A stretch of 45,581 nucleotides of DNA, taken from an uncultured Gemmiger sp. Its GTDB lineage: Bacteria > Bacillota > Clostridia > Oscillospirales > Ruminococcaceae. The notes under the pieces were generated by a model. That model had not been told where the DNA came from. It saw only the letters and a list, made by a program, of their open reading frames with translations, and did not search any database. The first letter of the stretch is position 1. Each line of letters starts with the position of its first letter. This document shows positions 7,521 to 39,205 of this stretch, one piece after another. The translations under genes were made by a program, and so were the position numbers. Location of the stretch: positions 1 to 45,581 of the forward strand of contig CALXHO010000013.1 in assembly GCA_944388125.1 (NCBI GenBank). The letters run 5' to 3'.

Positions 7521-8282
7521 TCACTCCGGTTCGGAGGGGCAGGGGATATCCCGGCCGCTGCACCACAGGGCGGCCAGACTCATGTCGTCGTGGGTGTGGG
7601 AGGACAGCTTGTCCTCCATGGCGCGGAGATAGGCCTCCCGCACCGTCTCCGGCGGGTTGTCGGGGTTGGCCAGCCAGCTGCACAGCACCTCCACCGCCTG
7701 GGCAGGGACGTGCTCCTCCCGGTCATACAGGCCGTCGGCGCTGCCGTCGCTGGCCAGCAGGACGCAGCGCTCCTCCCCGCAGACTCCCCGCTGCAGCCGC
7801 AGGTGTTCCGCCGCGCAGTCCTGGGAGAGAAAATAGGTCTCGTAGGAATAGAGGCCGTTTTCCGGGTAGGAGAGCACCCGCACGCCCTCGGCGTCGCTCT
7901 CAAAGAGATAGCCGTCCCCGATGTGGCCGCACAGCCAGCGCCCGTCCCGGTGACGGGCGTAGAACAGCAGGGTGCAGTAGCACTCCTCCATGGGCAGGCC
8001 CAGCACCTCCAGGGCCTGCTGGCCGTCTTGGACCAGCCGGACGGCGGCGTCGGGGCTGTCATCGGCGTAAAGGTCCTCAAAATGCCGGGAGAGGTATCCG
8101 GGCAGCCAGTTCACCACCGTCTCGGCGGCCTGCTCGCTGTGGGGGCAGCTGCCGGCGCCGTCGCTGAGGACAACGGCGGCCAGGGTGTCGTCCCGGTATC
8201 CCCCGGCGCGGTCCTGGCAGGGCAGACCGGCGGCGGCGTGGCTGCGGCCCCGCACCACACCGGCGGCAAATTTTGCTTGCAT
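7521..8282 (-). CDS. PP2C-family serine/threonine phosphatase (TerY-P triad member)
   Basis: This 253-residue protein has the metal-binding Asp motifs of PP2C phosphatases: LSDGAGS (Asp41), GHIGDGYL in the middle, LASDGSADGLYD, and a closing THDDMSLAAL with its Asp pair. PP2C enzymes use two Mn/Mg ions to remove phosphate from Ser/Thr. The start is taken at ATG 8282, eight bases after GGAGG; an in-frame GTG directly upstream at 8285 would add one residue. It follows the vWA gene by 39 bases and the large kinase gene lies one gene further upstream. A vWA protein, a PP2C phosphatase and a kinase together form the TerY-P triad described in comparative genomics, so this enzyme probably reverses the neighbouring kinase. 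Confidence 0.92.
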   Translation of the reverse strand: MQAKFAAGVVRGRSHAAAGLPCQDRAGGYRDDTLAAVVLSDGAGSCPHSEQAAETVVNWLPGYLSRHFEDLYADDSPDAAVRLVQDGQQALEVLGLPMEECYCTLLFYARHRDGRWLCGHIGDGYLFESDAEGVRVLSYPENGLYSYETYFLSQDCAAEHLRLQRGVCGEERCVLLASDGSADGLYDREEHVPAQAVEVLCSWLANPDNPPETVREAYLRAMEDKLSSHTHDDMSLAALWCSGRDIPCPSEPE

Positions 8283-8321
8283 CACATTTACCTCCCAAAC
8301 GGATCAGAGTACAGAGAATCC

Positions 8322-9023
8322 TCAGTGCCAGTCGGTGGGGGCATCCATGCCGCCGTGCTCTACCGTGTCACGGCTGGCCTGGCTGACGTTGCGGCTGAGG
8401 TTGTCGAAAAATTTGGAGACCACCATGTTTTCCAGACGGTCCACCTTGCCGTCGATGCTGAAATCGTTCAGGCTGCGGGTGCCGTCCCCCATGCTCAGGC
8501 ACATGGTCTTGAGCTTGAAGGTGCGCAGCAGGTGCTGCACCCGGTCGGCGGCCTGGCGCACCACCCGGTCCAGCTCGGAGGAGTCCCCGTCGCTGATGAT
8601 GATGAGCCAGGGGGTGTAGCAGTTGTTATTGACGCTGGACAGCCGCTGGCGGTAGTCCTCGATCTGGTCCAGGGCCAGCTGCACCCCGGCGGCCAGGGAG
8701 GTCTCGGAATCCCGGGCGGCGATGGGGGTGGCGGCCAGCTGTTTCAGGGCTGCCTCGGCGGAGCCGAACTCACAGAGTACCTTCGCCTCGTTGCCGAAGG
8801 TCACCAGGCAGATTTCGGCGGCATCCCGGGCCAGAAAGTTCTCGTCCACCTTTTTCAGAAAGGCGGTGACCCCGGCGCTGATCTCCTGGATGGCGCCGCT
8901 GATCTGCATGGAGATGGAACAGTCGATGCACAGGCAGATCAGGATGCGGATGCTGCGGTTGTTGGCCATCTGGCTGTCCTGAAGAAACAGCTCGCGGGCG
9001 GTGGAGGAAGTGTCCATAGCCAT
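8322..9023 (-). CDS. von Willebrand factor A (TerY-like) protein
   Basis: The protein has 233 residues. The MIDAS metal site is visible as CIDCSISM (DxSxS pattern), with SETSLAAGV supplying the second-site Thr and IIISDGDSSE the third-site Asp. This is the TerY-like vWA type, a metal-dependent protein-binding fold. The first ATG is chosen because AAGGAGAG lies seven bases upstream; MAMDTSS follows. It lies 32 bases after the kinase gene and 39 before the PP2C gene, all on one strand. It is expected to act as the binding adaptor of the triad. No TerB, TerC or TerD gene is seen in the window. Confidence 0.9.
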   Translation of the reverse strand: MAMDTSSTARELFLQDSQMANNRSIRILICLCIDCSISMQISGAIQEISAGVTAFLKKVDENFLARDAAEICLVTFGNEAKVLCEFGSAEAALKQLAATPIAARDSETSLAAGVQLALDQIEDYRQRLSSVNNNCYTPWLIIISDGDSSELDRVVRQAADRVQHLLRTFKLKTMCLSMGDGTRSLNDFSIDGKVDRLENMVVSKFFDNLSRNVSQASRDTVEHGGMDAPTDWH

Positions 9024-9055
9024 AAGAAAACTCTCCTTTCAGTAGGGAAAACGGT

Positions 9056-12000
9056 TCATCTCCGGCGGGCGCGGATCTGTTTGCGGCAGTTGTCGCAGAG
9101 GGGGCTGCGCTTTTTGTCCCGGTTCTGGATCTGCTGCCACACCGGCATGAGGAACCGGGTGCCGCAGCGGCCGCAGGTGACGGGGGTGCGGTTCCAGCAT
9201 TGGGAACAGTAGATGTGCTGGCCTTTCCTTTCCATGGAAATTTTCCGCCCCTTGAGCATCTGCACGGCATTGCCGCAGCTCTCACAGGGGACGGTGACCT
9301 GGGTGCGGCAGTCGGAACAGTAGATCTCCCGCACGCCCTTGGCTTTCAGCTCGGCCAGCCGCTTTTTCTCCATGAGGAAGGTCTTGCCGCAGCCGTCGCA
9401 GGTGACGGTGGTATGGCGGCAGGTATCGCACAGTGCCTCGGCCAGGCCGGACTCGATGAGCACGGCGTCTTCCACCGAGGTCTCGTACACCTTGCCGCAG
9501 GAGGAACAGGTCACCCGGCAGCGGTCGTTTTTGTGGTTTTCCAGGGAGTTGAGGCAGTTGCGGCAGAAGATCGGCTTGCCCTGGGCTTTCAGCCGCTCCA
9601 CCTGCTTTTTGTGGAGGTTGAACGCCCGGTGGCAGAAGGGACAGACCAGATCCACATAGGTGGGATTTTCCGGGTTGAATTCGTGGTATTTGGCGGGGGC
9701 CAGCTCGTCGCTGAAGCCCAGCCGCTCCACGCAGTAGAGGTAGGAGCTCATCAGGTCGGCCCACTCGGCGGCGGTGGTGGAATGCCAGTCCAGGAAGGTC
9801 CGGCCGAAGGCCTCGCACACTTTCTTGGGCAGGTTTTTCCAGATCATCCAGTTGTCGCCGTCGGGCACCTCAAAGTCGCCGCTGTTGCGCTCCACCTCGG
9901 CGTAGGCAAAGCGGCGCTGGGCCATGGCCTGGGTGAAGTCCAGGTCGGTCTTGGTGGCAAAGGGGTTCTGGCCCAGGAAGAGGATCTCGAACAGCAGGAT
10001 GGCAAAGGCGTAGTCGTCCTCGCTCTCGGTGCGCAGGATGGTCTTGAAGTCCAGGGCGCCGTGGATGTTCAGCCGCTCCCGGATGCCGGGATGGGTGAAT
10101 TTCTCGATGCCCACCGGGCAGGGGAATCCCCCGAACTGGAAGCTGTCGGTATCCACCACATAGACCCGGCCGCTGTTTTTCAGGTCCACCATGAAGTTGC
10201 CGCCGTTCACATCCCCCATGAGGATGTTGTGTTTGTGCAGCTGTGCCATGATGCGGGCCGCCGCCAGGGCGGTGCGGATCAGGTCCTTGCGGGTCCAGTT
10301 TGCCATCAGGGCCTGGCGCTGGCTGGGAGAGCCGATCTTCAGCACCGACTTGGCAAAGGGCAGGGCGTTTTGGGGGGCGCGGGGCATGGTGTAGCCGCAG
10401 AAATCCCCGGTTTCGGTGTAGAGCATGTGGGTGGGCCAGCAGAGCTCCGCCAGGCCGGGATCGTGGGCCAGCATCTCGGTCAGCTTGTCCCGGCGGCCCA
10501 CCGTCAGGTGTTCCCGGTTGTAGATCTTGGCCACGATCCCCTCGCTGTCGGTGAGGAACAGCGTGCCCTCGCCGCCCTCAGCGGGCTCGCCGTCCTCGGT
10601 GAGCAGACCGCGCAGCGTCACGGGGCGGTGCTCCTCGGTGTAGAGGACCATGCCGTTTTTCCCTTCCCCGGGAAAAGGCAGCAGCGTCTCATCCATCACC
10701 CGCAGGGGCGGGTCCTTGGGGAAGGGGGCGTTTTTCTGCCGGGCAGGGGAAGCGGCCGGAGGTTTTTTCACCGTCGTCCCGGGTCCGGGACCGGCCTGGG
10801 GCGTCCTTACCGGCGCCCCGGTTGCAGGGGCGGGGGCAGGAGCTGCCTGTGGCTTTTTCACCGGCATCTCCGCCGCGGGGGCGGGAGCCGGGGCAGCCGG
10901 GGACGGGGTCACCCGGGGAAAGGCTGCGCCGGTCGGGTCAGAAGCGGAAACGGGAGTGGGCGCGGGCGCGGAAACAGGGGCCGGCGCAGGGGCGGGAGAC
11001 GGGGCGGCAGCGGGAGCCGCGGAATCCCGCGACGTTTCCGCGGGAGCTGTCCGGTCTTTCGAAAGGGGGGAAGCGTTCTCCTCCATCATCTCTTTGAGCA
11101 GGCGGTCGGTGCGGACAAAGCTCTCCTTGACCAGCGGCATCACCAGCGGGTCGTCCAGGCTGGGGGCGGCAAAGGGCAGAAAATGGCGCAGCACCATGCA
11201 GTCCACCCCCACCAGCTCGTTGCCCTGCACCCGCACCACCGTCACAAAGGGCAGCCGGGCACGGTCGATGAGCTTGGGCAGGCTGGTGGCGCCGCTGACA
11301 AAAACGCAGTACCGCTCAAAGGGATGATCCTGCAGGGTGCGCACCAGGGCCTCGTCATCGGTGTACAGCGGGTCGGCCACGCCGGTCAGCTTCACCTTCA
11401 GCTGGTCCATGGCAAAGACGTAGGTGCCCTTGGACTGTTCCAGGGGGGCGATCTCCTGTTCCAGATCCTGGCGCTGGGGGGCGTAGGCGGGGCCCATGGG
11501 GGCCAGAAGCTGATATTTCTGCCGCAGGGCATCCAGCCGGTCAATGTCCCGGATCAGCCGCAGCATGGCGGTGCGCTCCACAAAGAGGGGGCGCCCGGCG
11601 GTGCGGGCGGCGGGGTAGAGCCGGCTGCCCAGAAAATACTTGCCGCCTGCGCTTTTGAGCAGACTGGGGGTCAGGATGATCTGATGGGTGCGCACCAGTT
11701 CCTGCAGGGTGCGCTGGTCCATGCTGCCCCCTGCGTAGCTGGCCAGAAGATCCAGGGCGGGGATGCCGTCCAGTTTTTTCTGGGCCATGCGCAGGCGGAT
11801 GTCCTCCTCCTGCAGGCGGCGGGCATCCTGCTGCTGCTGGAAGGCGCGGTTCTGGGCGGCAAGGGCCTCGTTTTCGGCGCGCAGCTCCTCCCGCTCCCGC
11901 TCTTCCCGGGCGCGCTCCTCCTCCCGGCGCACGGCGTCGGACAGATAGCCCAGAACGTTGTTCAGCGGGGCGTCCACAAAGCCGTCGGTGAAGGAAAACC

Positions 12001-12751
12001 CGCTCTGACCCAGCATTTCCCGCACCTGGTCCGCGGTGAGCAGCCCCTGCATCTCCTTGGCAATGTCCTCCGCCGAATAAAAGGCAATGGCGGCGGCCTC
12101 GTCGTAAATGCGGTGCACCTCGTCATATTCGGCCTTGACGGCGTCGCTGCGCAGGCAGTCCACCACCTGTATCCAGGGTTCGTAGATCTTTTGCCAGGCG
12201 GCTGCCGTCTCGGGCTTGCTGGAGGCGGTGGAGGCGTGGGCAAAGTCGTTGCGCAGATGGATGGCGGCGTGGAAGAGATCCTCCCACTGGAATTTGCGCA
12301 TGCTGGCAAGCCGGGGGCAATGCTGGCGGGCCAGGTCGGCCATGCTGCACCCGGCCTTGTCCTCCGGCAGATAGACAAACAGTTTGAAACAGGCCTGCAT
12401 GTCCAGCTTGCCCAGCAGTTCCCGGCGCAGGTCGGGGGAGACAGGGGCGGTCAGCACCTTCTTTAAGTAGTCGTCAAAGGCTGGATTGTTGGCGCGGGGC
12501 TTTTTCTGGCCGTTGGCGGCGCTGTCGGGCAGGGCCTCCCAGACGCGGTTGCGGTCGATGACCGAGCGCTGTTTTTCCTGTTCCGGCTGGGCGCATCCGG
12601 CGCGGAAGATGGCGGCAAACTTGTCCTCGGGAATGATGCTCTGCAAAGTGGCTACCATGAAGTTCAGCACGGCCTTCTGCAGCGAGGTGGCCTGCTGGGT
12701 CAGACGGTCGGCATACAGCGCAGCCCGGCGGCTGTCGTTGGCGTGGTCCAT
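9056..12751 (-). CDS. Large multidomain protein kinase with HEPN-like motif, coiled coil and five zinc ribbons
   Basis: The product is about 1231 residues. The start at 12751 (MDHANDSRRA) is chosen because AGGAGG lies nine bases before it; the ribosome site falls inside the longer reading. Residues 1-250 are helical and contain HLRNDFAHAS (near 165), which fits the RxxxxH signature of HEPN domains. Residues about 270-320 are a Glu/Arg-rich coiled coil, then comes an unrecognised alpha/beta region (330-560) and a Pro/Ala-rich linker (570-690). The kinase core follows: GGEGTLF loop near 725, VAKIY lysine near 740, MGDVNGGNF catalytic loop near 845, and DTDSF in place of DFG near 865. Five zinc ribbons with paired CxxC motifs fill 1035-1225. 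It heads the operon with the vWA and PP2C genes. Targets are unknown. Confidence 0.88.
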   Translation of the reverse strand: MDHANDSRRAALYADRLTQQATSLQKAVLNFMVATLQSIIPEDKFAAIFRAGCAQPEQEKQRSVIDRNRVWEALPDSAANGQKKPRANNPAFDDYLKKVLTAPVSPDLRRELLGKLDMQACFKLFVYLPEDKAGCSMADLARQHCPRLASMRKFQWEDLFHAAIHLRNDFAHASTASSKPETAAAWQKIYEPWIQVVDCLRSDAVKAEYDEVHRIYDEAAAIAFYSAEDIAKEMQGLLTADQVREMLGQSGFSFTDGFVDAPLNNVLGYLSDAVRREEERAREEREREELRAENEALAAQNRAFQQQQDARRLQEEDIRLRMAQKKLDGIPALDLLASYAGGSMDQRTLQELVRTHQIILTPSLLKSAGGKYFLGSRLYPAARTAGRPLFVERTAMLRLIRDIDRLDALRQKYQLLAPMGPAYAPQRQDLEQEIAPLEQSKGTYVFAMDQLKVKLTGVADPLYTDDEALVRTLQDHPFERYCVFVSGATSLPKLIDRARLPFVTVVRVQGNELVGVDCMVLRHFLPFAAPSLDDPLVMPLVKESFVRTDRLLKEMMEENASPLSKDRTAPAETSRDSAAPAAAPSPAPAPAPVSAPAPTPVSASDPTGAAFPRVTPSPAAPAPAPAAEMPVKKPQAAPAPAPATGAPVRTPQAGPGPGTTVKKPPAASPARQKNAPFPKDPPLRVMDETLLPFPGEGKNGMVLYTEEHRPVTLRGLLTEDGEPAEGGEGTLFLTDSEGIVAKIYNREHLTVGRRDKLTEMLAHDPGLAELCWPTHMLYTETGDFCGYTMPRAPQNALPFAKSVLKIGSPSQRQALMANWTRKDLIRTALAAARIMAQLHKHNILMGDVNGGNFMVDLKNSGRVYVVDTDSFQFGGFPCPVGIEKFTHPGIRERLNIHGALDFKTILRTESEDDYAFAILLFEILFLGQNPFATKTDLDFTQAMAQRRFAYAEVERNSGDFEVPDGDNWMIWKNLPKKVCEAFGRTFLDWHSTTAAEWADLMSSYLYCVERLGFSDELAPAKYHEFNPENPTYVDLVCPFCHRAFNLHKKQVERLKAQGKPIFCRNCLNSLENHKNDRCRVTCSSCGKVYETSVEDAVLIESGLAEALCDTCRHTTVTCDGCGKTFLMEKKRLAELKAKGVREIYCSDCRTQVTVPCESCGNAVQMLKGRKISMERKGQHIYCSQCWNRTPVTCGRCGTRFLMPVWQQIQNRDKKRSPLCDNCRKQIRARRR

Positions 12752-12804
12752 ATGCAAAAACCTCCTTGTCATGGAAAAAAGGCGGCAAAACTCTTATATC
12801 AGGT

Positions 12805-12834
12805 ATTATAGTCCCAAAAATCCGGCGGGTTCAA
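12805..12834 (-). promoter_or_regulatory. Promoter of the kinase/vWA/PP2C operon
   Basis: On the minus strand, TTGAAC (12834-12829), 18 bases, then a perfect TATAAT (12810-12805). The start of transcription should be near 12797, leaving a leader of about 45 bases to the ATG at 12751. Confidence 0.85.
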
Positions 12835-12911: not shown

Positions 12912-12952
12912 GAAAATAATACTGTTTCAGATTTCTGCTCACCCGCGGGTGA
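12902..12952 (+). promoter_or_regulatory. Two operator-like dyads over the Sel1 gene promoter
   Basis: ACAGTAT (12902-12908) and ATACTGT (12919-12925) form an inverted repeat that covers the -10 box and start site. Fourteen bases later TCACCCGCGGGTGA (12939-12952) is a perfect palindrome, flanked by CTG and CAG. Both are placed where a repressor would act. No regulator is identified. Confidence 0.5.
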
Positions 12953-13045
12953 ACAGTTTGAAAAATCATTCCCTATATTTTTGACAGGACCGAAAGCGGC
13001 AGACCGTCTGCCCGGGACCGGTCTCGATAAGAAAGGATGAGAAAA

Positions 13046-16000
13046 ATGTTCCAGTATGAGGATTTGGATTTTGAGACCCTTCGCAATTCGGAAGAGATCG
13101 ACCCCGACAGCCCGGAAGCTCTGTATGCCATGGCGCAGTTTTACCGGACCGGCAAGGGTGTGACCGCCGATGCGGACATGTACAAAAAATATCTGCGCAG
13201 TGCCGCCCAGGCGGGCAGCGAGATGGCCGCCCGGGAACTGGAGGAGCAGAAAGGTGCCCCGGCCGCCCCCAAGACGGCGCAGGCGCCGTCCGGCCTCACC
13301 GAGCTGATCCGCGGCGCCGAGAAGGGCCAGCCGGACGCCCTGATCCCGGCGGCAGATGCCTGTGCCCGGATGGGGGAGCCGGAGCGCGCGGTGAGGTTCC
13401 TGCAGAAAGCGGCGGACCTGATCGACCGCAATATTTACACCGAGGAGGAGTGCCAGCAGATCTGGCTGAAACTGGCCAGACTGTGGGGCGGCAAGGAGCT
13501 GAACGACCCCGAAAAATGCCACCGGGCCTACGGCATGGCGGCGGAGCTGCACAATGCCGAGGCGGCGGCCGCCTACGCCGAGCAGTGCCGCAACGGCTAC
13601 GGCTGCGAGAAGGACGAGGAGAAAGCTCTCCACTATGAGGCCATCAGTGCCGAGCGTGGCGGCTCCTTTGAAAAATACGGCTTTGCCCTGCAGCTGTTGA
13701 CCAGCGGCAAGCGGATGGACGCGGCCATGCTGCTGGAGCAGGCCATGAACACTGCCCAGGACCCCGAAATGAAACAGGCCTGCCGGCTGATTATGGCCTA
13801 TCTGGGCGCATCGCCCCTGACGCCGGAGACGGCGCAGTGGGCCTGGCAGCACTATGACGGGCAGAAGATCCGGGCAAACCCGGAGGAAAACGGCAAACGC
13901 GAAGAGATGGGCATTCCCCTGATGACGCTGGCGGAACCCTACGGCACCATGGAGCACGCCCGGGAGGCGGGCCTGCCCTTTGACGCCGAACAGGCGGCGG
14001 TCATCGGCAAAAATACCGATCCCAAGGTGGGCATCCAGTGGCTGGAGTATGCGGCGGAGCAGGGCAGCGTCAAGGCCTACAATACCCTGGGATATTATTA
14101 CGTTGTGGGTAAAGGTGTGCCCAAGGATTCCCGCCGGGCGTTTTACTGGTTTGAAAAAGGCGCCCAGGCCGGAGATGCCACTGCCCAGTATAATATGGGC
14201 CTCTGCTACTGGGATGGCAACGGCGTACCCGCCGACCCGGGCAAGGCGGCCATCTGGTTCCGGCAGGCGGCGGACAAGGGCGACGCCAGCGCCCAGAACC
14301 GGCTGGCCCATTGCTACCAGAATGGCATCGGTGTGGCTGCTGACCCGGAACAGGCGGTCTACTGGTACAACCAGGCGGCAAAACAAGGGGACGGCAATGC
14401 ACAGAGCAACCTGGGCATTTGCTACCGGGACGGCATCGGTGTGGCAGCCGACCCGGAAAAGATGATCTACTGGTTCCGCCAGGCGGCGGAGCAGGGCAAT
14501 GCCAAAAGCCAGAACAGCCTGGGAAACTGCTATCTTGAGGGCAGAGGCGTGGAGAGGGACCCGGTCCAGGCGGCAGCCTGGTTCCGGAAAGCGGCGATCC
14601 AGGGCTGGGCAACCGCTCAGTACAATCTGGGCGGATGCTACAAGGAGGGCGTCGGCGTTGCCAAGAACCTGCAAAAGGCGGCCGAATGGTTCCGGAAAGC
14701 AGCGGAGCAGGGGATGCCGGACGCCCAGTATGTTCTGGGAAAAAGCTATGCCTCCGGGAGTGGCGTGGAAAAGGATCTGACGCAGGCCGCTGCCTGGTAC
14801 CAGAAGGCCGCAGAGCAGGGCATGGCAGAAGCCCAGTACAGCCTGAGCGTCTGTTACCGGGAGGGCAGCGGTGTGGCCGCCGACCTGAAAAAGTCCGCCT
14901 TCTGGAGCCGCAAAGCGGCGGAGCAGGGAATGGCGGATGCCCAGAATGATCTGGGCGTCTGGTATCAGCGCGGCGTCGGCGTAGAAGGAAAGGACCTGCC
15001 CCAGGCTGCAGAATGGTTCCGCAAGGCGGCGGAGCAGGGCCTGGCAGCGGCCCAGTGTAATCTGGGCATTGCCTACTGGAAGGGCCAGGGCGTGGAACAG
15101 GATGAAGACCAGGCCCTGACCTGGCTCCAGAAAGCGGCGGACCAGGGGTATGAGCAGGCCAGGAAGGCCATCCAGCAGATGCGCCGCCAGCAGGAACCGG
15201 AGCCTGCGCAGCCGGAACAACCCTCCGCCGCATCCCCCTCCAACGGGAAAAACGAAGGTCTGAATAACCGGAAGCTCCTGCTGCCTTTGCTGGTTGCCGT
15301 GGCTTTTGCGGTGGTCTGGATGGTCAGCGGTTTTGTGGAGGTGCTGTTCCCCGCAAAGAGCGATGCCGAAGCGGGCACAGCGGGCACCGGGACCAGCCAG
15401 GCCGCCGACTCCAACGTCATCAATCCCTTCGACCCCGCCTTCTTCAATACGCCCGACGGGGTGGAACTGAAGTTCAGCGGCATTGCCCCCAACGGCACCC
15501 TCATCATCAGCAACAATCTGCCGTCGGACAACCCGGCGTCCCAGATTATCTATGAGGCCGACCGCTATGAAGGCCTTTCCGACCTGGAGAACATCACCAT
15601 CACCGCCTCGCTGAACAACAGCGACTACCGCCTGAAAAACACCAGCGTTGTCATGAAGGTAAAGCTGGACAATCATTATCTCAAATCCCTGGATGAGCTC
15701 AACGCCGATTCCTGGGCCAAGATCAAGACGGCCCTGAATGAAAAGGTCATTGCCAACATCGGCATGCCGGATGAAAACGGCATCTATGTGCCCAACAGCA
15801 ACCGCGACATCGATACGGATGACGGTTATTCCCTGGATGATTCCAAGATGTATGGTCTCACCTATACAAACTGCATCCTTCTCCAGGCCAAAAATCCCGA
15901 GGATCTGGACAGTGATGAGCCGGAAAGCCGGCTGATGATTGAGTATACCATCGGCTATGATCTGGTGTATACGTGGGCAGATAGTGTCTCCGAGACCGTT

Positions 16001-16198
16001 CCCGCCGCCACCGGCTGCATTTACGTGGACGACCTGATCGTGGACGGCGACGGCAACGCGGAGGTGGATTCCTCTCAGTTCAAGATGTCAAGAAAGGTAT
16101 ATCACCAGTTGGTGGACTTCGAAAACAACTGGATCTCTCCTTACATGACCACCTACTCCATGAGCACGGTGGACGCCTCCCAGGTGCTGCCCCAGTAA
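13046..16198 (+). CDS. Membrane-anchored Sel1-like repeat protein
   Basis: The product is about 1050 residues. A first Sel1-type unit stands near the N-terminus (ALYAMAQFYRTGKGV), and about ten consecutive 36-residue units run from about residue 335 to 710, each with the pattern AQxxLGxCYxxGxGVxxDxxxAxxWxxKAAEQG. Such arrays are protein-binding solenoids. A single hydrophobic helix (LLPLLVAVAFAVVWMVSGF, about 745-765) follows, then a C-terminal domain of about 280 residues that is not recognised. The repeats are probably cytoplasmic and the C-terminal domain outside, by position. The start at 13046 is preferred because AAAGG lies nine bases upstream; the ATG at 13037 abuts it. It diverges from the kinase operon and Sel1 proteins often accompany such kinases, so a scaffold role is inferred. 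Confidence 0.88.
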   Translation: MFQYEDLDFETLRNSEEIDPDSPEALYAMAQFYRTGKGVTADADMYKKYLRSAAQAGSEMAARELEEQKGAPAAPKTAQAPSGLTELIRGAEKGQPDALIPAADACARMGEPERAVRFLQKAADLIDRNIYTEEECQQIWLKLARLWGGKELNDPEKCHRAYGMAAELHNAEAAAAYAEQCRNGYGCEKDEEKALHYEAISAERGGSFEKYGFALQLLTSGKRMDAAMLLEQAMNTAQDPEMKQACRLIMAYLGASPLTPETAQWAWQHYDGQKIRANPEENGKREEMGIPLMTLAEPYGTMEHAREAGLPFDAEQAAVIGKNTDPKVGIQWLEYAAEQGSVKAYNTLGYYYVVGKGVPKDSRRAFYWFEKGAQAGDATAQYNMGLCYWDGNGVPADPGKAAIWFRQAADKGDASAQNRLAHCYQNGIGVAADPEQAVYWYNQAAKQGDGNAQSNLGICYRDGIGVAADPEKMIYWFRQAAEQGNAKSQNSLGNCYLEGRGVERDPVQAAAWFRKAAIQGWATAQYNLGGCYKEGVGVAKNLQKAAEWFRKAAEQGMPDAQYVLGKSYASGSGVEKDLTQAAAWYQKAAEQGMAEAQYSLSVCYREGSGVAADLKKSAFWSRKAAEQGMADAQNDLGVWYQRGVGVEGKDLPQAAEWFRKAAEQGLAAAQCNLGIAYWKGQGVEQDEDQALTWLQKAADQGYEQARKAIQQMRRQQEPEPAQPEQPSAASPSNGKNEGLNNRKLLLPLLVAVAFAVVWMVSGFVEVLFPAKSDAEAGTAGTGTSQAADSNVINPFDPAFFNTPDGVELKFSGIAPNGTLIISNNLPSDNPASQIIYEADRYEGLSDLENITITASLNNSDYRLKNTSVVMKVKLDNHYLKSLDELNADSWAKIKTALNEKVIANIGMPDENGIYVPNSNRDIDTDDGYSLDDSKMYGLTYTNCILLQAKNPEDLDSDEPESRLMIEYTIGYDLVYTWADSVSETVPAATGCIYVDDLIVDGDGNAEVDSSQFKMSRKVYHQLVDFENNWISPYMTTYSMSTVDASQVLPQ

Positions 16199-16274: not shown

Positions 16275-16429
16275 CCAATTTTTTTCTGCCCGGCGTGAAC
16301 TCGGGCGGGAATGCTGCCGTATCACCTGTATGCAGGCGGAAGGGCATGGAAATGCCGGGAAGCCGGACAAAACAGAAAGAAGGTGAAGAAAAAATAAAAT
16401 TTTTCCAGACAGGGCGTGAACCTTCCCCG

Positions 16430-16650
16430 GAACCCGCCCCTATCACAAAAGCAGAGAGGCAAACACCTCCCCACCGCACCGGGACCGAGGATGCGGGGCC
16501 AACCTGGCAGCCAAGCGCCAAGGGCAGGCGGGACACCAGACCGCACACGGGGGATACCCCGGTGAGCCGCACCCCCATCCAGCGGCCCGCTGCCAGCTCC
16601 GCCCCGGCGGAGGGATCGCTTCGGCGGTCCAGCTGAAGTTTCGTCGCCTT
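16430..16650 (+). promoter_or_regulatory. GC-rich structured leader before the CAP-domain gene, possible riboswitch
   Basis: The 489-base gap before the CAP gene has no convincing gene but a long GC-rich stretch full of hairpins. They include GGGG-GATA-CCCC (about 16552-16563), CAGCGG-C-CCGCTG, GATCGC-TTCG-GCGGTC, and CTTCGGC pairing with GCTGAAG near 16618-16640, which is followed by a CCTTTTT run that could terminate transcription. Short blocks (GGGACCG, GGGGCCAACC, GGGATACC, CCGCACCC) occur in the order of conserved blocks in ydaO/yuaA c-di-AMP riboswitches, but the AGCUAAC block is not convincing. The regulator type is therefore unproven. A TAAAAT box at about 16394 is a weak candidate -10. 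Confidence 0.33.
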
Positions 16651-16687: not shown

Positions 16688-19318
16688 ATGTCTGAGAACA
16701 ATCTGTACCGTCAGGATTCGGAAAACAAGACCGGCAATCGCCGAAAGAAAGAGGGAAAAATCATGAATCGCAAATCTATTGTCGCCATCGTGGCCGCCGC
16801 CCTGCTGGGGGTCGGCGCCGTCTCCTACGTAGCCCTGCGGCCCCAGACCGGGTCCGAGGCAGCGCTCCCTGTGGCCGTCCAGCCCGCGGAGGATAACACC
16901 TCCGCTCCGGATGCCGTCCCCGAAGCCCCGGATACCTCCTTGAATGATCCGGCAGAGGACGCAGCCGACACCACCGAAACCACCGAAACCACCAGCCGCG
17001 CAGCGGACAGCGCTGCAGCCGAAAAAGAAGCTCCTTCCGCGACCGAGACCCCGACGGTCACCGGGGCGGAGACCCTGGCGGCGGAGCAGACCGCCGCAGC
17101 GGACACCACCGTCAGCAATGCGGGCGGCGGCGCCGTCCAGGTGGGGGACGAGCAGCAGACCAATTCCCAGCCCGGCGGTGACAGCCAGCAGCAGGGCGGC
17201 GGACAGAATACGCCGTCCCAGCCCTCCGGCCAGGGCACGGTCCAGGCGGCGGACATCCTGACCCTGACCAATCAGGCCCGCCAGGCGAACGGCCTTGCCG
17301 CCCTGACTGCTGCGCAGGAGCAGGCAGCCGTCGATACCCGCGCCAGAGAGCTGGCCCAGGTCTTTGACCACACCCGCCCCGACGGCAGCAGCTGTTTCAC
17401 GGCGGTGAGCGGCTCCTACACCTACGAGGGTGAGAATATTGCCTTCATCCAGGGCGAGGCATCGGCCCAGCGCTTCCTGGAACTGTGGATGGGCTCGGAG
17501 GGACACCGTGCCAACATCCTGAGCCAGAATTATGTGTCCATGGCGGTGGGCGTCTTTTACGATTCCGCCACCAACACCACCTACGCGGTGCAGATGTTCT
17601 TCGGCGAGCCCCTGACCCCGGCACAGCCCACCTACACCTACGTGGACACGGTGGTCGCCCCCACCTGCACCGAGCAGGGCTACACCCTGCACACCTGCAA
17701 CGAGGATGAGAGCAAGAGCTACAAGGACAATTACACCGACGCCCTGGGCCACGACTGGGACGAGGGCACGGAGACCCAGGCGGCCACCTGCACGGCGGAC
17801 GGCGTGAAGACCTTCACCTGCTCCCGCTGCAGTGAGACCCGGACCGAGGCCATCCCCGCCACCGGCCACCAGACCGAGGTCCGGAATGCCGCGGAAGCCA
17901 CCTGCACCACGGACGGCTACACCGGTGACACGGTGTGCACCGTCTGCGGCGAGGTGATCGAGGAAGGCGAGGCCATCCCCGCCGCCGGTCACCAGACCGA
18001 AGTCCGGAATGCCGCGGAAGCCACCTGCACCACGGACGGCTACACCGGTGACACGGTGTGCACCGTCTGCGGCGAGGTGATCGAGGAGGGCGAGGCCATC
18101 CCCGCCGCCGGCCACCACTTCGTTGACGGCAAATGCACCGTCTGCGGCGAGGCTGACCCCGACTACAAGCCCGAAATGGAATATACCTACACCGAGACGG
18201 TGGTCGCTCCCACCTGCACCGAGCAGGGCTACACCCTGCACACCTGCAACGAGGACGAGAGCAAGAGCTATAAGGACAACTACACCGACGCCCTGGGCCA
18301 TGACTGGGACGGCAAGAATCTGGGCGCCAAGTGCAAGCGCTGCGGCACCGACCTGTTCATCTTTGACCACACCGTGGAGGCAACCTGCCAGGATGGCGGC
18401 TGCGACGTCTACGTCAGCGTCGAGGATCCCAGCCAGATCCGCATGACCAACTTCACCGACCCCGTTGACCACAACTTCGTGGACGGCAAATGCACCGTCT
18501 GCGGGGCCAAGGATGACACCTTCATCCCGTCCTACGACGACAATTACAGCGAAAGCTACTACAACAGCACCATCGCATCCCTGACCAATGCGGAGCGGGA
18601 GAGCCGCGGTCTGGCGCCGCTCCGCTACGCTTCCGAGTATCAGGCAGCCGCCGATATCCGTGCGCAGGAAATCGTCACCAACTTCAGCCATACCCGTCCG
18701 GACGGCTCCGGCCCGGAAACCGCGCTGGATGCCCTGGGCGCCAAGTATGACCATGTGGGCGAGAACATCGCTTACGTCTCCAGCATGTACAAACCCGGCA
18801 AAATCGTGGACAACTGGATGGCTTCCTCCGGTCACGCCGCCAATATCCTGAACAGCTCCTTCGATTCCTTCGTCGTCGGTACTGCCTGCTCCAATGGCCG
18901 TGTCTACGCCGTGCAGATTTTCTTCGCGGATGCCTCCGCGGCGGACAACAGCATCCAGACCATGGCGCTGGACCAGGCGGAAGCCCCTTTTGAGGCGGCG
19001 GCCCCGGCGGAGGAAGCTGCTCCCGCCGGTGAGACCGCTCCCGCTGAAGAAGCAGCCCCTGCCGGTGAGCTGACTCCCGCCGAGGACGCCCCTCCCGCCG
19101 AGGCGGCCGCCCCCGCCGAGGAAGCCGCCCCCGCCGAGGAGGCCGCCCCCGCCGAGGAGACCACCCCCGCTGAGGAGCCCGCCCCCGCTGAGGAGCCCGC
19201 TCCCGCCGAGGAAGCTGCCCCCGCCGAGGAGCCCGAGGAAAAGAAGGAGGATGCACTTCCCGCCGATCCTCAGGAAGACCCCGCGGCCCAGGCCGAGCCC
19301 TCCGGCCAGACGGAGTGA
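16688..19318 (+). CDS. Secreted double CAP-domain (SCP/PR1-like) protein with Cys-rich repeats
   Basis: The product has 876 residues. A signal or anchor helix (SIVAIVAAALLGVGAVSYVAL) follows a 28-residue basic/polar lead; an internal ATG at 16763 would remove that lead. AGGAGG eight bases before 16688 favours the long form. A Thr/Ala/Glu-rich linker leads to CAP domain 1 (about residues 195-315: FDHTRPDGSS, YEGENIAF, GHRANIL). Then come Cys-rich repeats with CTVCGE units to about residue 615, then CAP domain 2 (about 620-755: FSHTRPDGSG, HVGENIAY, GHAANIL). The last 110 residues are a Pro-Ala-Glu tail without an LPxTG motif. CAP domains of the YkwD type are extracellular; their activity in bacteria is poorly known. 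Confidence 0.9.
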   Translation: MSENNLYRQDSENKTGNRRKKEGKIMNRKSIVAIVAAALLGVGAVSYVALRPQTGSEAALPVAVQPAEDNTSAPDAVPEAPDTSLNDPAEDAADTTETTETTSRAADSAAAEKEAPSATETPTVTGAETLAAEQTAAADTTVSNAGGGAVQVGDEQQTNSQPGGDSQQQGGGQNTPSQPSGQGTVQAADILTLTNQARQANGLAALTAAQEQAAVDTRARELAQVFDHTRPDGSSCFTAVSGSYTYEGENIAFIQGEASAQRFLELWMGSEGHRANILSQNYVSMAVGVFYDSATNTTYAVQMFFGEPLTPAQPTYTYVDTVVAPTCTEQGYTLHTCNEDESKSYKDNYTDALGHDWDEGTETQAATCTADGVKTFTCSRCSETRTEAIPATGHQTEVRNAAEATCTTDGYTGDTVCTVCGEVIEEGEAIPAAGHQTEVRNAAEATCTTDGYTGDTVCTVCGEVIEEGEAIPAAGHHFVDGKCTVCGEADPDYKPEMEYTYTETVVAPTCTEQGYTLHTCNEDESKSYKDNYTDALGHDWDGKNLGAKCKRCGTDLFIFDHTVEATCQDGGCDVYVSVEDPSQIRMTNFTDPVDHNFVDGKCTVCGAKDDTFIPSYDDNYSESYYNSTIASLTNAERESRGLAPLRYASEYQAAADIRAQEIVTNFSHTRPDGSGPETALDALGAKYDHVGENIAYVSSMYKPGKIVDNWMASSGHAANILNSSFDSFVVGTACSNGRVYAVQIFFADASAADNSIQTMALDQAEAPFEAAAPAEEAAPAGETAPAEEAAPAGELTPAEDAPPAEAAAPAEEAAPAEEAAPAEETTPAEEPAPAEEPAPAEEAAPAEEPEEKKEDALPADPQEDPAAQAEPSGQTE
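17867..18112 (+). repeat. Near-identical 123-bp tandem duplication inside the CAP gene
   Basis: Two direct 123-base units (17867-17989 and 17990-18112) each encode 41 residues beginning HQTEVRNAAEATC and containing a CTVCGE motif. They differ at only a few bases. A second pair of related segments (about 17633-17760 and 18183-18310, both VVAPTCTEQGYTLHTCN) flanks them. Confidence 0.92.
18990..19240 (+). repeat. Short-period coding repeat (Pro-Ala-Glu tail)
   Basis: Imperfect repeats built on 15-18 bases (GCCCCCGCCGAGGAG-like) encode APAEE units at the C-terminus of the CAP protein. They would be prone to slippage and length variation. Confidence 0.8.
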
Positions 19319-19356: not shown

Positions 19357-19386
19357 TTGTCAGCCCGATTGCGGCGGTGTTATACT
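19357..19386 (+). promoter_or_regulatory. Promoter of the CARF-like / sigma-like gene pair
   Basis: TTGTCA (19357-19362), 18 bases, then TATACT (19381-19386). Transcription should start near 19393. Confidence 0.75.
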
Positions 19387-19472: not shown

Positions 19473-20084
19473 ATGAAACGCATTTACTTCACTGCCGTCC
19501 CCCTGGAAAGCAATTTTGTCCTGGACAAAAAGCCGGTCTGCCCGGTGAACTTCACGCTGGATACCGGGGTCCGGGAGGCGGCGTTTCCCATCGTCCCCAT
19601 TGTGGACGCCACCCTGCAGCCGGAGGATGAGGGCGTGATCGTGGCGGTCCGCCAGCAGAACAGCCCCCGCAACAAAAACATGGACATTCTGCGGGAGGAG
19701 CTGGACGCCCTGGGCAAATCCAACTGGACCATCCGGGAACTGACCGTTCCCGAGCGGCAGGACAAGGATCTGCTTCTGGGGCTGTTCACCGCCATGATCG
19801 ACTGCCTCGCCGACGACGCCTGCTACTACGCCTGCATGACTTTCGGCACAAAGACCTATCCGGTGGTGCTGTTCAGCGCCCTGTCCTACGCCGAAAAGAT
19901 CCGCAAAAACACCCAGATCTGCGGCATCTATTACTGCGAGATCCGGCGGGAGGAAGGCAAACCCCGGCAGGCCAGTCTCTACGATGTGTCCGCCCTGTTC
20001 ACCCTCAATTCGCTGGTGGATCTGGTGGCCGGTATGGACTGTGAGGACAAGGACCGGATGATCCGCACCATGCTGGAGCTGTAA
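19473..20084 (+). CDS. TM1812/CARF-like nucleotide-sensing protein
   Basis: The protein has 203 residues. Residues 120-140 read ACMTFGTKTYPVVLFSALSY, close in pattern to the conserved DxTxGxRxxP...ALxY ligand-site helix of TM1812 (Csx-type CARF) proteins. It is followed by IYYCEIRR and LYDVSALFTLNSLVDL, which match the next elements of that family (the IYYG strand and the YDLTSFxxLxD helix). EEGVIVAVRQQNSP-like residues 53-66 form an earlier Rossmann-type strand. CARF domains bind cyclic oligoadenylate or related nucleotides. No HEPN or other effector domain is fused: the protein ends straight after the CARF-like region. It is 12 bases from a sigma-like gene, which suggests that the sensed ligand controls transcription. 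No Cas10 or other ligand synthase is visible in the window. GGAGG precedes the ATG. Confidence 0.68.
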   Translation: MKRIYFTAVPLESNFVLDKKPVCPVNFTLDTGVREAAFPIVPIVDATLQPEDEGVIVAVRQQNSPRNKNMDILREELDALGKSNWTIRELTVPERQDKDLLLGLFTAMIDCLADDACYYACMTFGTKTYPVVLFSALSYAEKIRKNTQICGIYYCEIRREEGKPRQASLYDVSALFTLNSLVDLVAGMDCEDKDRMIRTMLEL

Positions 20085-20096
20085 CGGAGGCATACC

Positions 20097-21179
20097 ATGC
20101 AACAAAACAAGGAGGAACGGGCGGACCGGGACGCCCTGAAACAACAGATCAACACCCATCCGCTGCTGGCCCTGCCGCCGGAAGAGCGCTTGGGGCAGAC
20201 CCGCCAGCGGATGGAGCTGGCCGAGCTGCTGCTGCGCTGGTACCGCTTTGAGCAGCAGCTGGAAAAGACGCTTCAGACTCAGGACAGCGCCCTGGCCGAG
20301 AGCGAAGCCAGCGCCCGGGGTGTCTACACAAGGAATAAAAAAATCCAGCAGCATTTTGACGGCGTGGCCTTTATGGAGACGGTGGTGGAAGCCCTCAAGT
20401 GGTACGACGCCTCCCGGGGCGCCGCTTTCACCACCTACTTTTACGGCCTGTACCAGCAGCGGGCCCAGCGGAGCAACGCCCGGGAGATCGCCATTGTGGA
20501 GCGGCAGGCCTTCGGGCCGCTGAAGCGGCAGGACCTGCAGCTGCTCAAGCAGCTCAACAAGCTGATCCTGCGCCAGAACCTTCCCTATGCCCCGGAAAAT
20601 CTGCCCGACAAACTGTGCGTTCCCCTGGCGGAACAGCTGGGCATCACGCCCAAACAGCTGCGGGGGCTTTTGTCCACCCTGCGGATGATCCGCCTGGTGG
20701 AGCCCGCCCGCAACGAGGACGGGGAGGAGGAAGCCCCCGAGGAAAAGGTGGCCGACGCCGCAGAGCAAAACCCCGCCCGGCAGATAGAGGCCATCCAGGA
20801 GCTGGCCGCGGCGCTGGACCTTCTGGCGGAAAACGACCAGAAGGAATACCCCCGGCTTTTCATGACAAACGATGTGCTGCGCCCCCTCAAGGACCCGGAC
20901 GGGGAAACGGGCGATCCCGTGGCCTATGCCAGGGTGCTGGTGCAGTGTGAGGAAGCCCTCTTCCGGGCTGTCTTTGAAAAGGCCTATCTCCGCTTTGTCT
21001 ATGAGGAATCCCCCCGCCCCGACAGCATGCGTCATCTGGTGAAAGGCCGGCTGCGGCGGCCGCTGCAGGACGCTTCCATCGCGGCCTACAAGCAGGTCCG
21101 GCCGTCGGCAGTGTCCAACGCCCGCAAGCGGTTCCAGGCGCTGCAAAAGCAGCTGCGCCGCCAGCTGGAAGAGGACTGA
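20097..21179 (+). CDS. Sigma-70-like protein paired with the CARF-like gene
   Basis: The product has 360 residues. Residues 99-125 (ALKWYDASRGAAFTTYFYGL) match the region 2 signature of sigma-70 factors, where KFDPSRGxxFSTYA is usual. LGITPKQLRGLLSTLRMI (about 182-200) could be a helix-turn-helix. An acidic linker follows (about 206-225), then a helical C-terminal half of unknown type rich in Arg and Lys at its end (NARKRFQALQKQLRRQL). It is longer than ECF sigma factors and lacks an obvious classic region 4. CGGAGG precedes the ATG, 12 bases after the CARF-like gene. It may be a dedicated sigma factor or a sigma-derived regulator. Confidence 0.62.
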   Translation: MQQNKEERADRDALKQQINTHPLLALPPEERLGQTRQRMELAELLLRWYRFEQQLEKTLQTQDSALAESEASARGVYTRNKKIQQHFDGVAFMETVVEALKWYDASRGAAFTTYFYGLYQQRAQRSNAREIAIVERQAFGPLKRQDLQLLKQLNKLILRQNLPYAPENLPDKLCVPLAEQLGITPKQLRGLLSTLRMIRLVEPARNEDGEEEAPEEKVADAAEQNPARQIEAIQELAAALDLLAENDQKEYPRLFMTNDVLRPLKDPDGETGDPVAYARVLVQCEEALFRAVFEKAYLRFVYEESPRPDSMRHLVKGRLRRPLQDASIAAYKQVRPSAVSNARKRFQALQKQLRRQLEED

Positions 21180-21330: not shown

Positions 21331-21351
21331 GCGTGAAGGAGGGCATTGAAC

Positions 21352-22665
21352 ATGGAAGACCTGATCCGGCATGAAGGGCAGATAAACCAGCAGCTGGCGC
21401 GGTACGGCGTCAAGTTCGGCATTTACAAGGACGGACAGTTTCATGAGCGGCTGTTCCCCTTTGACACCATTCCCCGCATCATCACGGCGGCGGAGTGGAC
21501 CACCCTGGAAAAGGGCCTGGCTCAGCGCGTGCGGGCGCTGAACTGTTTTCTGCGGGATATCTACGGCGAAAAGCGCATCCTGGCCAACGGCGTGGTGCCG
21601 GAGGATTTCGTCTACCGTTCCCCCGGCTACCTGCCTGCCTGCGAGGGCATCGTCCCGCCGGGCGGGGTGTACAGCCATATCTCGGGCATCGACCTGGTCA
21701 AGGGCAAGGACGGTGTCTGGTATATCCTGGAGGATAACCTGCGCATTCCCTCCGGTGCCTCCTATCCCCTCATCGCCCGGGAACTCTGCCGCCGCTGCAG
21801 CCCCGAGACATTCCGCCGCCACCCGGTGGTGGACAACCGCGGCTACGGCGAGCTGCTGCGCAAGACCATGGACAGCGTGAACACCGGGGGCATCAACGTG
21901 GTGTTCACCCCCGGCCGCTATAACGCCGCCTACTTTGAGCACGCCTTCCTGGCCGAGAAGGCCGGGGCAGTCCTGGCCGAGAGCGGCGACCTCTATGTGC
22001 GGGACAGCCAGCTGTACTACCGCTCCACCCAGGGGGACGAGAAGGTGGGCGCCATCTACCGCCGGGTGTCCGACGAGTACATGGACCCCCTCTGCTTTGA
22101 GCCCAGCTCCCTCATCGGCATCCCCAACCTGATGGCCGCCTACCGGGCGGGCAACGTGGCGGTACTCAACGCCTTCGGCAACGGGGCGGCGGATGACAAG
22201 GGCATCTACTATTTCGTCCCCTGCATGATCCGCTACTATCTGGGGGAGGAGCCCATCCTCTCCAACGCCCCCACCTACCTGCCCATCGAGGACAAGGACC
22301 GCCAGTATATTCTCGATCACCTGGACAGCCTGGTCATCAAGGATGTGGCCGAGGCGGGCGGTTACGGCGTGGTATTCGGCAGCAAGCTCACCAAGGAACA
22401 GCTGGCCGACCTGCGGGAGACCATCCTGGCCCGGCCCCGGCGGTTCATCGCCCAGGAGGTGGTGGACTTCCAGGATCTGCCCATCCGGGACAACGGGGAG
22501 ACTGTGGAGCGCAAGGCCGACCTGCGGGCCTTTGTGCTCTCGGGGGCGGAGGACACGGTGGTCTGGCCCAGCGGCCTGACCCGGTTCTCCCGCAATCCCG
22601 ACAGCTTCATCGTCAATTCGTCGCAGGGAGGAGGATTCAAGGATACATGGATACTGTCACGCTGA
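21352..22665 (+). CDS. Circularly permuted ATP-grasp protein (COG2308 type)
   Basis: The protein has 437 residues. The N-terminal region AEWTTLEKGLAQRVRALNCF followed by FLRDIYGEKRIL is the hallmark of the circularly permuted type 2 ATP-grasp family (DUF404/DUF407). ILEDNLRIPSGASYPLIAREL carries the acidic and basic residues of the active centre, and KDVAEAGGYGVVFGSKL is the glycine-rich ATP-binding segment. The family is predicted to form amide or peptide bonds and is typically co-encoded with alpha-E and transglutaminase-like proteins, as here. The ATG at 21352 lies nine bases after AGGAGG; an upstream TTG at 21346 is rejected. The next gene overlaps its end by 19 bases. Confidence 0.93.
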   Translation: MEDLIRHEGQINQQLARYGVKFGIYKDGQFHERLFPFDTIPRIITAAEWTTLEKGLAQRVRALNCFLRDIYGEKRILANGVVPEDFVYRSPGYLPACEGIVPPGGVYSHISGIDLVKGKDGVWYILEDNLRIPSGASYPLIARELCRRCSPETFRRHPVVDNRGYGELLRKTMDSVNTGGINVVFTPGRYNAAYFEHAFLAEKAGAVLAESGDLYVRDSQLYYRSTQGDEKVGAIYRRVSDEYMDPLCFEPSSLIGIPNLMAAYRAGNVAVLNAFGNGAADDKGIYYFVPCMIRYYLGEEPILSNAPTYLPIEDKDRQYILDHLDSLVIKDVAEAGGYGVVFGSKLTKEQLADLRETILARPRRFIAQEVVDFQDLPIRDNGETVERKADLRAFVLSGAEDTVVWPSGLTRFSRNPDSFIVNSSQGGGFKDTWILSR

Positions 22666-23318
22666 GCAAACAGAACCGGCTGTTCTGGCTGGGCCGGTAC
22701 AGCGAGCGGGTCTACGCCACCACCCGCCATATGATGCAGCAGCTCGACCTTCTCATCGACGGTCGGCCGGTGGCCTACCAGGATTACTGCGCCCGGCTGG
22801 GCATCCCCTGCATCTACACCAGCGACGAGGATTTCTGCCGCCGGTATCTCTTTGACGCAGGCGACCCCAACTCGGTGCTGTCCGCCGCCGAGGCCATGCT
22901 GGGCAACGGCATGGTATTGCGGGAAACCCTCACCTCCCAGACCCTGGCCTATCTGGAGATGGCCCACTTCGCCATGGAGATGGCCAGCCGCAGCGAGGCC
23001 CCGGTGGTGGAGCTGCAGTGGGTGCTGGATGACCTGATGGCCTTCCGGGGCAGCTTTGACGACACGGTGGAGGCGGAGAGCGCCCGCAACATCACCAAAT
23101 CCGGCGGCATGGTGGAGCGCCTGAGCCTGATGATCCGGCTGGGCGCCCCCGCCGACCGGACCATGCGGGAGCTGCGCAAGCTGCTCAACCGGCTGTACAA
23201 GACCGACCTTGCCCCCGACGCCGCCGCCCTGGCGGTGGTGGAGGGCCGGGCCGTGGAGGAAAAGGCGGTGCCCGATGCCCAGCTTCTCACCGCTGTGGAG
23301 GGGCTGTTCCATCCATGA
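22647..23318 (+). CDS. Alpha-E domain protein (COG2307 type)
   Basis: The protein has 223 residues and is mostly helical. The start region LSKQNRLFWLGRYSERV is the recognised opening of alpha-E (DUF403) proteins, and the Arg/Glu-rich helices that follow fit the same fold. It is clearly shorter than the roughly 310 residues usual for the family. No enzymatic motif is known; in the conserved cluster it accompanies the permuted ATP-grasp enzyme and is thought to be part of the same peptide-synthesis system. It overlaps the ATP-grasp gene by 19 bases and the next gene by 4 (ATGA), so translation is coupled. Confidence 0.88.
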   Translation: MDTVTLSKQNRLFWLGRYSERVYATTRHMMQQLDLLIDGRPVAYQDYCARLGIPCIYTSDEDFCRRYLFDAGDPNSVLSAAEAMLGNGMVLRETLTSQTLAYLEMAHFAMEMASRSEAPVVELQWVLDDLMAFRGSFDDTVEAESARNITKSGGMVERLSLMIRLGAPADRTMRELRKLLNRLYKTDLAPDAAALAVVEGRAVEEKAVPDAQLLTAVEGLFHP

Positions 23319-36648: not shown

Positions 36649-36661
36649 GATACATTCCTCC

Positions 36662-39123: not shown

Positions 39124-39125
39124 AG

Positions 39126-39136
39126 GATCACCTCCT
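39126..39136 (-). promoter_or_regulatory. Full-length Shine-Dalgarno of cas5c
   Basis: On the minus strand AGGAGGTGATC is complementary to the whole 3' end of 16S rRNA. It is followed by CT and the TTG start codon of cas5c, and so fixes that start. Confidence 0.88.
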
Positions 39137-39205
39137 GTGTCCTGCGCCGGAAGATACCGGCATAAAAATCATGCGCTTTATATTTCAGTTTCACGTCAAG
39201 CGGCT

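Follow-up and report, generated by a model that had tools for sequence, protein, structure and literature searches.

A standalone CARF protein gene paired with the gene of a divergent sigma70-family relative beside a TerY-P-like triad: a candidate signal-controlled gene switch in Gemmiger and its relatives

The outputs so far known for CARF sensors consist for the most part of enzymes, nucleases among them, of regulators in which CARF is fused to a helix-turn-helix (HTH) domain and, by way of the related SAVED sensor, of a proteolytic cascade that releases a sigma factor. Csa3 places transcription under CARF control by means of a winged HTH, and the type III-E Craspase assembly (Csx29-Csx30-RpoE) provides a further CRISPR-linked sigma factor, controlled by RNA-triggered proteolysis and with no CARF domain. 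In the CalpL/CalpT/CalpS system, as described in PMC11229360, cyclic tetra-adenylate (cA4) from type III CRISPR frees a sigma factor via proteolysis and leads to a transcriptional response, and in the account of RsiG-WhiG given in PMC8325347 a nucleotide second messenger, cyclic di-GMP, gates a sigma/anti-sigma switch through a small partner protein. For the RtcR-like CARF proteins of CoCoNuT systems the signal is predicted to drive transcription, with RNA ends carrying a 2',3'-cyclic phosphate as its proposed form, and CoCoNuT types II and III-A also hold TerY-P triads, which comprise a vWA protein, a PP2C phosphatase and a kinase with a C-terminal zinc ribbon (PMC11090510). Here we describe a stretch of 45,581 nucleotides (nt) from an uncultured Gemmiger sp. 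(contig CALXHO010000013.1; hereafter the window), in which the gene of a standalone CARF protein (19473..20084, plus strand) is followed directly by that of a divergent sigma70-family protein (20097..21179, plus strand) in the vicinity of a TerY-P-like triad, and we lean towards a reading in which the CARF protein gates an alternative sigma factor that switches on the TerY-P module.

This locus departs in its parts from each of the described systems that it resembles. In CalpL-CalpT-CalpS a SAVED-Lon protease cuts the anti-sigma factor (PMC11229360), whereas the sensor here is a bare CARF protein of a branch that shows no Cas10. Apart from a weak A24 peptidase-domain match in a CAP-domain protein, a Pfam scan of genes around the pair (2828-25188) gave no protease family over its cut-off, although a distant protease may lie elsewhere. 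Csa3, which is among the fold matches of our CARF model, fuses its CARF and DNA-binding domains, whereas here the sensor is encoded separately from its partner, which is a relative of sigma factors. RtcR acts via sigma54 as a single CARF-ATPase-HTH protein (PMC4012209), and we rejected an identification of our CARF protein as RtcR because no one protein unites these three parts. RsiG is a coiled coil that binds its sigma factor when cyclic di-GMP is bound (PMC8325347), in contrast to the Rossmann-like CARF model. The window's triad shares with described TerY-P triads a vWA protein, a PP2C phosphatase and a kinase with zinc-ribbon-like Cys pairs, and differs from them in adjoining a CARF-sigma pair and a Sel1 gene and in the large N-terminal extension of its kinase. 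Our literature search, outside which the main CARF classification lies, found no report of a bare CARF protein with a sigma70-type partner, and the available portion of a survey of bacteriophage exclusion (BREX) systems that uses the terms CARF and sigma factor does not describe the pair. A preliminary description of this DNA had raised nucleotide-gated transcription through a sigma-like factor, against known CARF outputs given as mostly RNases, DNases and proteases; its CARF, sigma-like and pairing components stand, and its novelty is reduced by the sigma output of CalpL/T/S, the CARF-HTH fusion of Csa3 and the RsiG-WhiG switch, all already known.

The pairing of the two genes and the homology of their products across relatives are firm. 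Loci with a standalone CARF gene (L-numbers; genomes carry G-numbers) were sought in 35 genomes of the genus, 396 of the family, 394 of the order and 341 of the class, and with one match from a phage collection (L188) these searches yielded 34 loci, 10 from the window's branch, 16 further ones from the family and 7 from the order and class. The window genome (G000; 2.57 Mb, 86.75% complete) belongs to a GTDB genus holding Gemmiger metagenome-assembled genomes, and the eight genomes of its branch are 83-99% complete. In the window the two open reading frames (ORFs) are separated by 12 nt and preceded by a sigmaA-like promoter (TTGTCA-N18-TATACT, 19357..19386, plus strand; read from the sequence with a consensus scan), just where the preliminary description had placed them and with the motifs that it quoted. 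Among the 33 loci in which a partner can be assessed (L043 stops at a contig edge), the next same-strand gene after CARF belongs to the sigma-like family in 29, including 10 of 10 in the window's branch. None of the three outcomes that the preliminary description named as refuting it (no CARF fold, no sigma region 2 helices, no conserved pairing) occurred, the sigma model being weak. When each partner was compared alone with three sub-branch profiles built without it, 29 of 31 gave P 2.8e-5 or lower (the worst being L108, followed by L049 at 1.9e-5), against 1.1e-3 at best for 40 other proteins from the loci. A sigma-like profile gave 7 strong matches in 396 genomes, every one directly after a CARF gene, together with 12 weak matches at which the ORF across the match, chosen by a region-2-like motif, reads in our judgement as a sigma-type factor (12/12).

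Both genes are under purifying selection relative to L057 (dN/dS about 0.18 for CARF and about 0.25 for the sigma-like gene), and within the window's branch the pairwise distances of the two proteins correlate at r 0.967, a value reached in none of 2000 permutations. The order of the genes stays constant in several families and in surroundings unrelated to one another, the two genes overlapping or being separated by at most about 20 nt. That ordinary defence-island genes simply travel together, as the BrxL and WYL genes adjoining the pair in L188 might suggest, is for this reason very improbable; the L188 partner is 52% identical to that of L105.

The first gene encodes a CARF protein with a predicted Rossmann-like fold. 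Its 203-aa product matches the PADLOC model CARF2--CARF (PDLC01822) at E 4.8e-59 over residues 1-202 and, weakly and under the model's cut-off, NCBIfam TIGR02221 (cas_TM1812; E 9.6e-6); no Pfam family passed its cut-off. The full-length PADLOC match leaves no fused nuclease or other effector to be found in the protein, in keeping with the TM1812-like, nuclease-free character first assigned to it, and its identification as Csa3 was rejected since no winged HTH is fused. An AlphaFold model built from four input sequences is of moderate confidence (mean predicted local distance difference test score, pLDDT, 64.1; predicted template modelling score, pTM, 0.70), and of the top 18 PDB rows that Foldseek returned for it 17 bear the name Csx1-Crn2, Csm6 or Csa3 in their titles (E from 1.7e-7), the remaining one being titled a protein of unknown function. 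Eight residues (K2, P10, E76, G125, K127, Y154, D171 and L175) are invariant across 24 aligned CARF sequences, K127 as part of a GxK motif. The protein is probably a dimer, and its predicted ligand is a nucleotide or RNA-end signal.

Standalone CARF proteins also include the dedicated Crn1-type ring nucleases, and the CARF protein of the window could instead be a ring nuclease or a ligand sponge that ends a signal, with a sigma-like gene that is co-transcribed and outside its direct control. The ring nucleases' case is helped by Sso2081 and Sis0455, which the CARF model matches more weakly in the fold search, and by the invariance of K127; the 29 of 33 pairings and the co-divergence of the two proteins are, however, tighter than an off-switch needs, and all 8 genomes of the window's branch, G000 included, are without a Cas10 match (PF22335, E<=1e-3) and so show no Cas10 whose product the CARF protein could destroy. 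We regard this alternative as quite unlikely.

The second gene encodes a 360-aa protein that, from profile comparison and a weak structure model, is a very divergent sigma70-family relative with a region 2 (residues ~88-130), helices that are perhaps region 3 (residues 144-201) and a C-terminal, region-4-like HTH (residues ~325-350). Known sigma factors were represented in hhalign comparisons by 30 loci from three genomes, two of which give ORFs of identical contig, length and E-value. Against this reference the window's branch scored 50.3 (Prob 88.8, P 2.5e-6) over columns 93-196, corresponding to region 2, whereas 100 column shuffles reached at most 22.8, and shuffles, five unrelated families and reversed alignments together at most 23.2; adding five further relatives to the branch gave a score of 55.6 (Prob 92.7) on the C-terminal HTH. 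Foldseek with the structure model points the same way, 49 of the 50 matches listed being chains of RNA polymerase-sigma entries (best E 0.014), a weak form of support in which the sigma chain is recognised from entry title and length; RsiG-WhiG entries occur among these rows. The first description of the two products as CARF-like and sigma-like is thus upheld by the fold searches as well as by the profiles, the model of the second being weak. Links among the sub-branches extend the family: the window's branch matches the sub-branch of L051 and L104-L107 at P 5e-10, the set of partners of type III type matches that sub-branch at P 7.2e-6, and the region-2 and HTH parts are both kept between branches. 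Within that sub-branch the L051 partner passes the Pfam Sigma70_r4 model (24.5 bits against a cut-off of 24.1), and the L105 partner matches TIGR02937 under the cut-off (E 3.6e-4). Because no curated Pfam or NCBIfam sigma model recognises the window's protein over its cut-off, we call it sigma-like, a divergent relative and not a filed sigma factor. Binding of RNA polymerase by this protein is predicted.

Nearby genes supply a candidate output. On the minus strand lie genes for a PP2C phosphatase (7521..8285; PF13672, E 3.6e-35), a vWA (TerY-like) protein (8322..9023; PF13519, E 5.4e-7) and a 1238-aa kinase-like protein (9056..12772) with a kinase-like core (GDVNxxN, VDTDSFQ) and C-terminal, zinc-ribbon-like Cys pairs. 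With the first two over their Pfam cut-offs and adjacent to a kinase with Cys pairs, 7521-12772 has the composition of a TerY-P triad. The kinase-like protein matches PF07714 weakly and under the cut-off (E 0.0037); its kinase-like residues and Cys pairs are invariant in 7 homologues, as are the R-N and H, near residues 174-179, of an N-terminal RN-x3-H motif that we take to suggest a HEPN domain. Divergent from the kinase operon is a gene for a Sel1-repeat protein (13037..16198, plus strand; PF08238, E 3.3e-113). In the window's branch sequence clustering places the triad in 7 of 10 loci and a Sel1 homologue in 6 of 10; the loci without a triad are L057 (a 4-kb contig), L037 (10.6 kb) and L058, and the L037 genome carries, on a different contig, an additional operon of Sel1, kinase, vWA and PP2C genes. 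Across 337 sampled genomes of the family, homologues that cover most of the kinase are confined to six, all of them with this branch of the CARF-sigma pair (in G314 the homologues are in two pieces each), and partial-length matches occur in three others. Outside the branch, L105, from a genome without Cas10, and L188 have CARF, sigma-like, vWA, PP2C and kinase genes in one operon, and L107 has vWA and PP2C genes that, judged by eye, appear to lie upstream. The triad and the Sel1 gene, which the preliminary description overlooked together with the promoter-like element of the relatives, are likely outputs of the switch.

This element has the form TTTAA(C/T)(T/C)-N15..18-(C/G)(T/G)ATA, mostly with N16, and its core form, TTTAACT-N16-C(T/G)ATA, is the sequence that the sigma-like factor is predicted to read. 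The 10 loci of the window's branch hold 12 sites, and the expectation of about 0.1 flatters the element because the pattern was framed after viewing the same sequences. Sites lie before the kinase gene in L033-L036 and before Sel1 in L034-L036; L033 has one before a 391-aa gene at the head of the Sel1 side, L034, L035 and L037 each have one ahead of a lipoprotein-like gene, and in L056 CARF itself is preceded by one. In genome-wide scans with spacings of N15..17 and the pattern read backwards as a control, G252, G305, G348 and G065 hold 5, 3, 4 and 4 sites against 1, 0, 1 and 0 for the control, with 3, 2, 3 and 2 of the sites in CARF-sigma or triad loci. These counts mark the element as rare and concentrated at the locus in these four genomes, which represent two sister genera. 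Sites also precede a lipoprotein-like gene on G252:C48 (L181 1481-2439) and the gene of a small membrane protein on G065:C5 (L182 3210-3806), both possible further members of the regulon.

For the window itself we used a weight matrix of 14 sites from relatives, from which the window's sites were excluded. Its first-ranked site in the window is a candidate promoter of the kinase operon (TTGAACC-N16-CTATA, 12807..12834, minus strand), 35 nt before the kinase gene, and its third-ranked site a candidate promoter of Sel1 (GTGAACA-N17-CTATA, 12949..12977, plus strand), 60 nt before that gene. A weak candidate in row 10 (GTGAACC-N17-CTATC, 16416..16444, plus strand) lies 244 nt upstream of the CAP gene. 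In the L032 locus the regions upstream of Sel1 and of the kinase gene rank third and fourth.

A number of observations weigh against a circuit of this kind. The standalone CARF genes of L045 and L048 have no sigma-like partner, the partners of L040 (P 3.7e-3) and L052 (P 2.2e-2) show no significant link to the sigma-like family, and L058 has the pair and no triad in the 20 kb covered. None of the Pfam sigma families matches the window's sigma-like protein (the best match, TFIIE_alpha at E 0.015, is under the cut-off), no NCBIfam sigma model recognises it, and a PF04542 search of its genome at E<=1 misses it; PADLOC returned nothing for it, no sigma chain was matched among PDB sequences, and its structure model is of low confidence (pLDDT 55.8, pTM 0.34). 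The type III-type partners, taken alone, are barely tied to known sigma factors (Prob 21.8, P 9.8e-4), their tie passing through the window's branch, which they match at Prob 94.7 and P 6.3e-8. No exact copy of the element occurs in the window, L032, L057 or L058. Genome-wide, G314, G005, G000 and G019 hold 5, 4, 4 and 1 sites against 4, 1, 6 and 6 for the backwards control, and CARF-sigma or triad loci account for 2, 1, 0 and 0 of the sites. The window's own copies are degenerate, at 13.6 and 12.2 bits compared with 17.6-27.2 for the 14 sites under leave-one-out scoring, and 12807..12834 can also be read as a sigmaA promoter.

The failure of every curated sigma model tried on the window's protein, the slender tie of the type III set and the two unlinked partners would all suit a second protein that keeps the sigma fold without sigma activity, serving as an HTH regulator or as a decoy that, bound to RNA polymerase or to a sigma site, blocks transcription. 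We consider this unlikely in view of the conservation of both the region-2 and the HTH parts between branches and of the two-part element, mostly with a 16-nt spacing as for a sigma factor, at the relatives' neighbouring operons. A further alternative gives the element a different reader in the cell, be it a repressor or some other sigma factor, and makes the pair and the TerY-P module neighbours that have no regulatory link. In its favour, G000, G065 and G475 have 14, 20 and 32 matches to PF04542 at E<=1, respectively; the -10 part of the element resembles promoters of the sigma28 type, and type III loci hold the pair without the triad in the stretches listed. Against it, the element is concentrated at the locus in four genomes, and the second triad of G314, which lies on a separate contig, is served by a site 82 nt ahead of its Sel1 gene; we judge this explanation improbable too.

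A CARF-gated sigma factor is thus a supported proposal, strongest in the sister genera. In this proposal the CARF protein would bind a nucleotide or RNA-end signal, and binding would free or activate the sigma-like partner, which would then guide RNA polymerase to a dedicated two-part promoter upstream of the divergent kinase-vWA-PP2C operon and of the Sel1 gene. Contact between the CARF and sigma-like proteins is predicted, and control could run in either direction, by inhibition or by activation. In type III relatives the signal would most likely be a cyclic oligoadenylate from the adjoining Cas10, and in the window's branch RNA ends with a 2',3'-cyclic phosphate are a candidate. If true, a CARF protein paired directly with a sigma factor would link a second messenger to gene expression by a very short path, its occurrence in genomes that lack Cas10 would offer a defined case of CARF signalling beyond type III CRISPR, and the TerY-P-like triad would gain a candidate inducer.

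The type III context was surveyed with PF22335 in the 28 CARF-bearing genomes, of which 17 have a match at E<=1e-3 and 14 one over the cut-off. In 10 of the 34 loci (L038, L039, L040, L046, L049, L050, L051, L102, L103 and L108) a match over the greater part of the model lies less than 10 kb from CARF, L040 being also one of the two with an unlinked partner; not counted among the ten is a match in a frame of 399 aa some 9 kb from the L042 CARF gene. The pair thus has a wider range than the preliminary description gave it and is not confined to loci without CRISPR. Nine of the Cas10 sequences are complete, at 482-533 aa, and the tenth is cut by the end of its locus. The GD(D/E) palm motif is kept in all ten, no HD domain was found by Pfam at E 0.1 in the four scanned, and the short Cas10s, those of all these loci but L051, are possibly signal-only enzymes. 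PF22335 also gives matches in E. coli, and GGDEF proteins may account for some partial matches (profile 53-132, frames near 350 aa). PF22335 has no match at this threshold in G475, G666 and G715, and its lack of a match in G000 speaks against classing the window's pair as an accessory effector of type III CRISPR. The SMODS model PF18144, the sole CD-NTase model used, finds nothing in G000, which by this model gives no sign of CBASS, and is matched in 2 of the 28 genomes. The only cas genes noted in the preliminary description, of type I-C and 14 kb away, are confirmed at 35653-41419 on the minus strand, with Cas7, Cas8c and Cas5c over NCBIfam cut-offs and Cas3 recognised via its HD domain.

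Pairs that recur with and without CRISPR loci in the same bacterial class suggest a signal-controlled gene switch. The broader form of this idea, which we hold tentatively and regard as close to evenly balanced, is a two-gene switch that is portable, its bare CARF protein directly holding and releasing its own sigma factor. It would serve as an output of type III CRISPR where a Cas10 signal is present and, in genomes without type III, would induce TerY-P via a private promoter on sensing another nucleotide or RNA-end signal.

Several further loci show other surroundings. L188 (MT835511.1 7824-24109), a phage-labelled and UNVERIFIED entry, is perhaps a bacterial defence island; it contains BrxL, a WYL regulator and the CARF-sigma-vWA-PP2C-kinase operon, after which comes a helicase-like AAA protein. 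In L106 (9525-14385) the pair is followed by a 97-aa gene and by a 962-aa protein that matches the PADLOC models IetA, DolB and TRIP13 and is possibly another kind of output. In L041 (9946-13908) the pair is followed by a 526-aa protein, for which no family passed its cut-off, and by a Pkinase protein, and the same genome holds a SMODS cyclase. The CARF genes of L045 and L048 lie downstream of genes that, named by eye, appear to encode a phosphate-type ABC transporter, a response regulator and a histidine kinase.

Between the Sel1 gene and the pair the window carries a CAP-domain protein (16688..19318, plus strand; PF00188, E 8.1e-23), whose repeats give a weak A24 peptidase-domain match and which has a relative in only L057 among the 10 branch loci. 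Beyond the pair follows an operon with its own sigmaA-like promoter (21346-25191), encoding circularly permuted ATP-grasp, alpha-E, transglutaminase-like and AspA-like proteins; none of the nine remaining branch loci has a relative of this operon clustering next to the pair, and the operon may be a peptide-related cluster.

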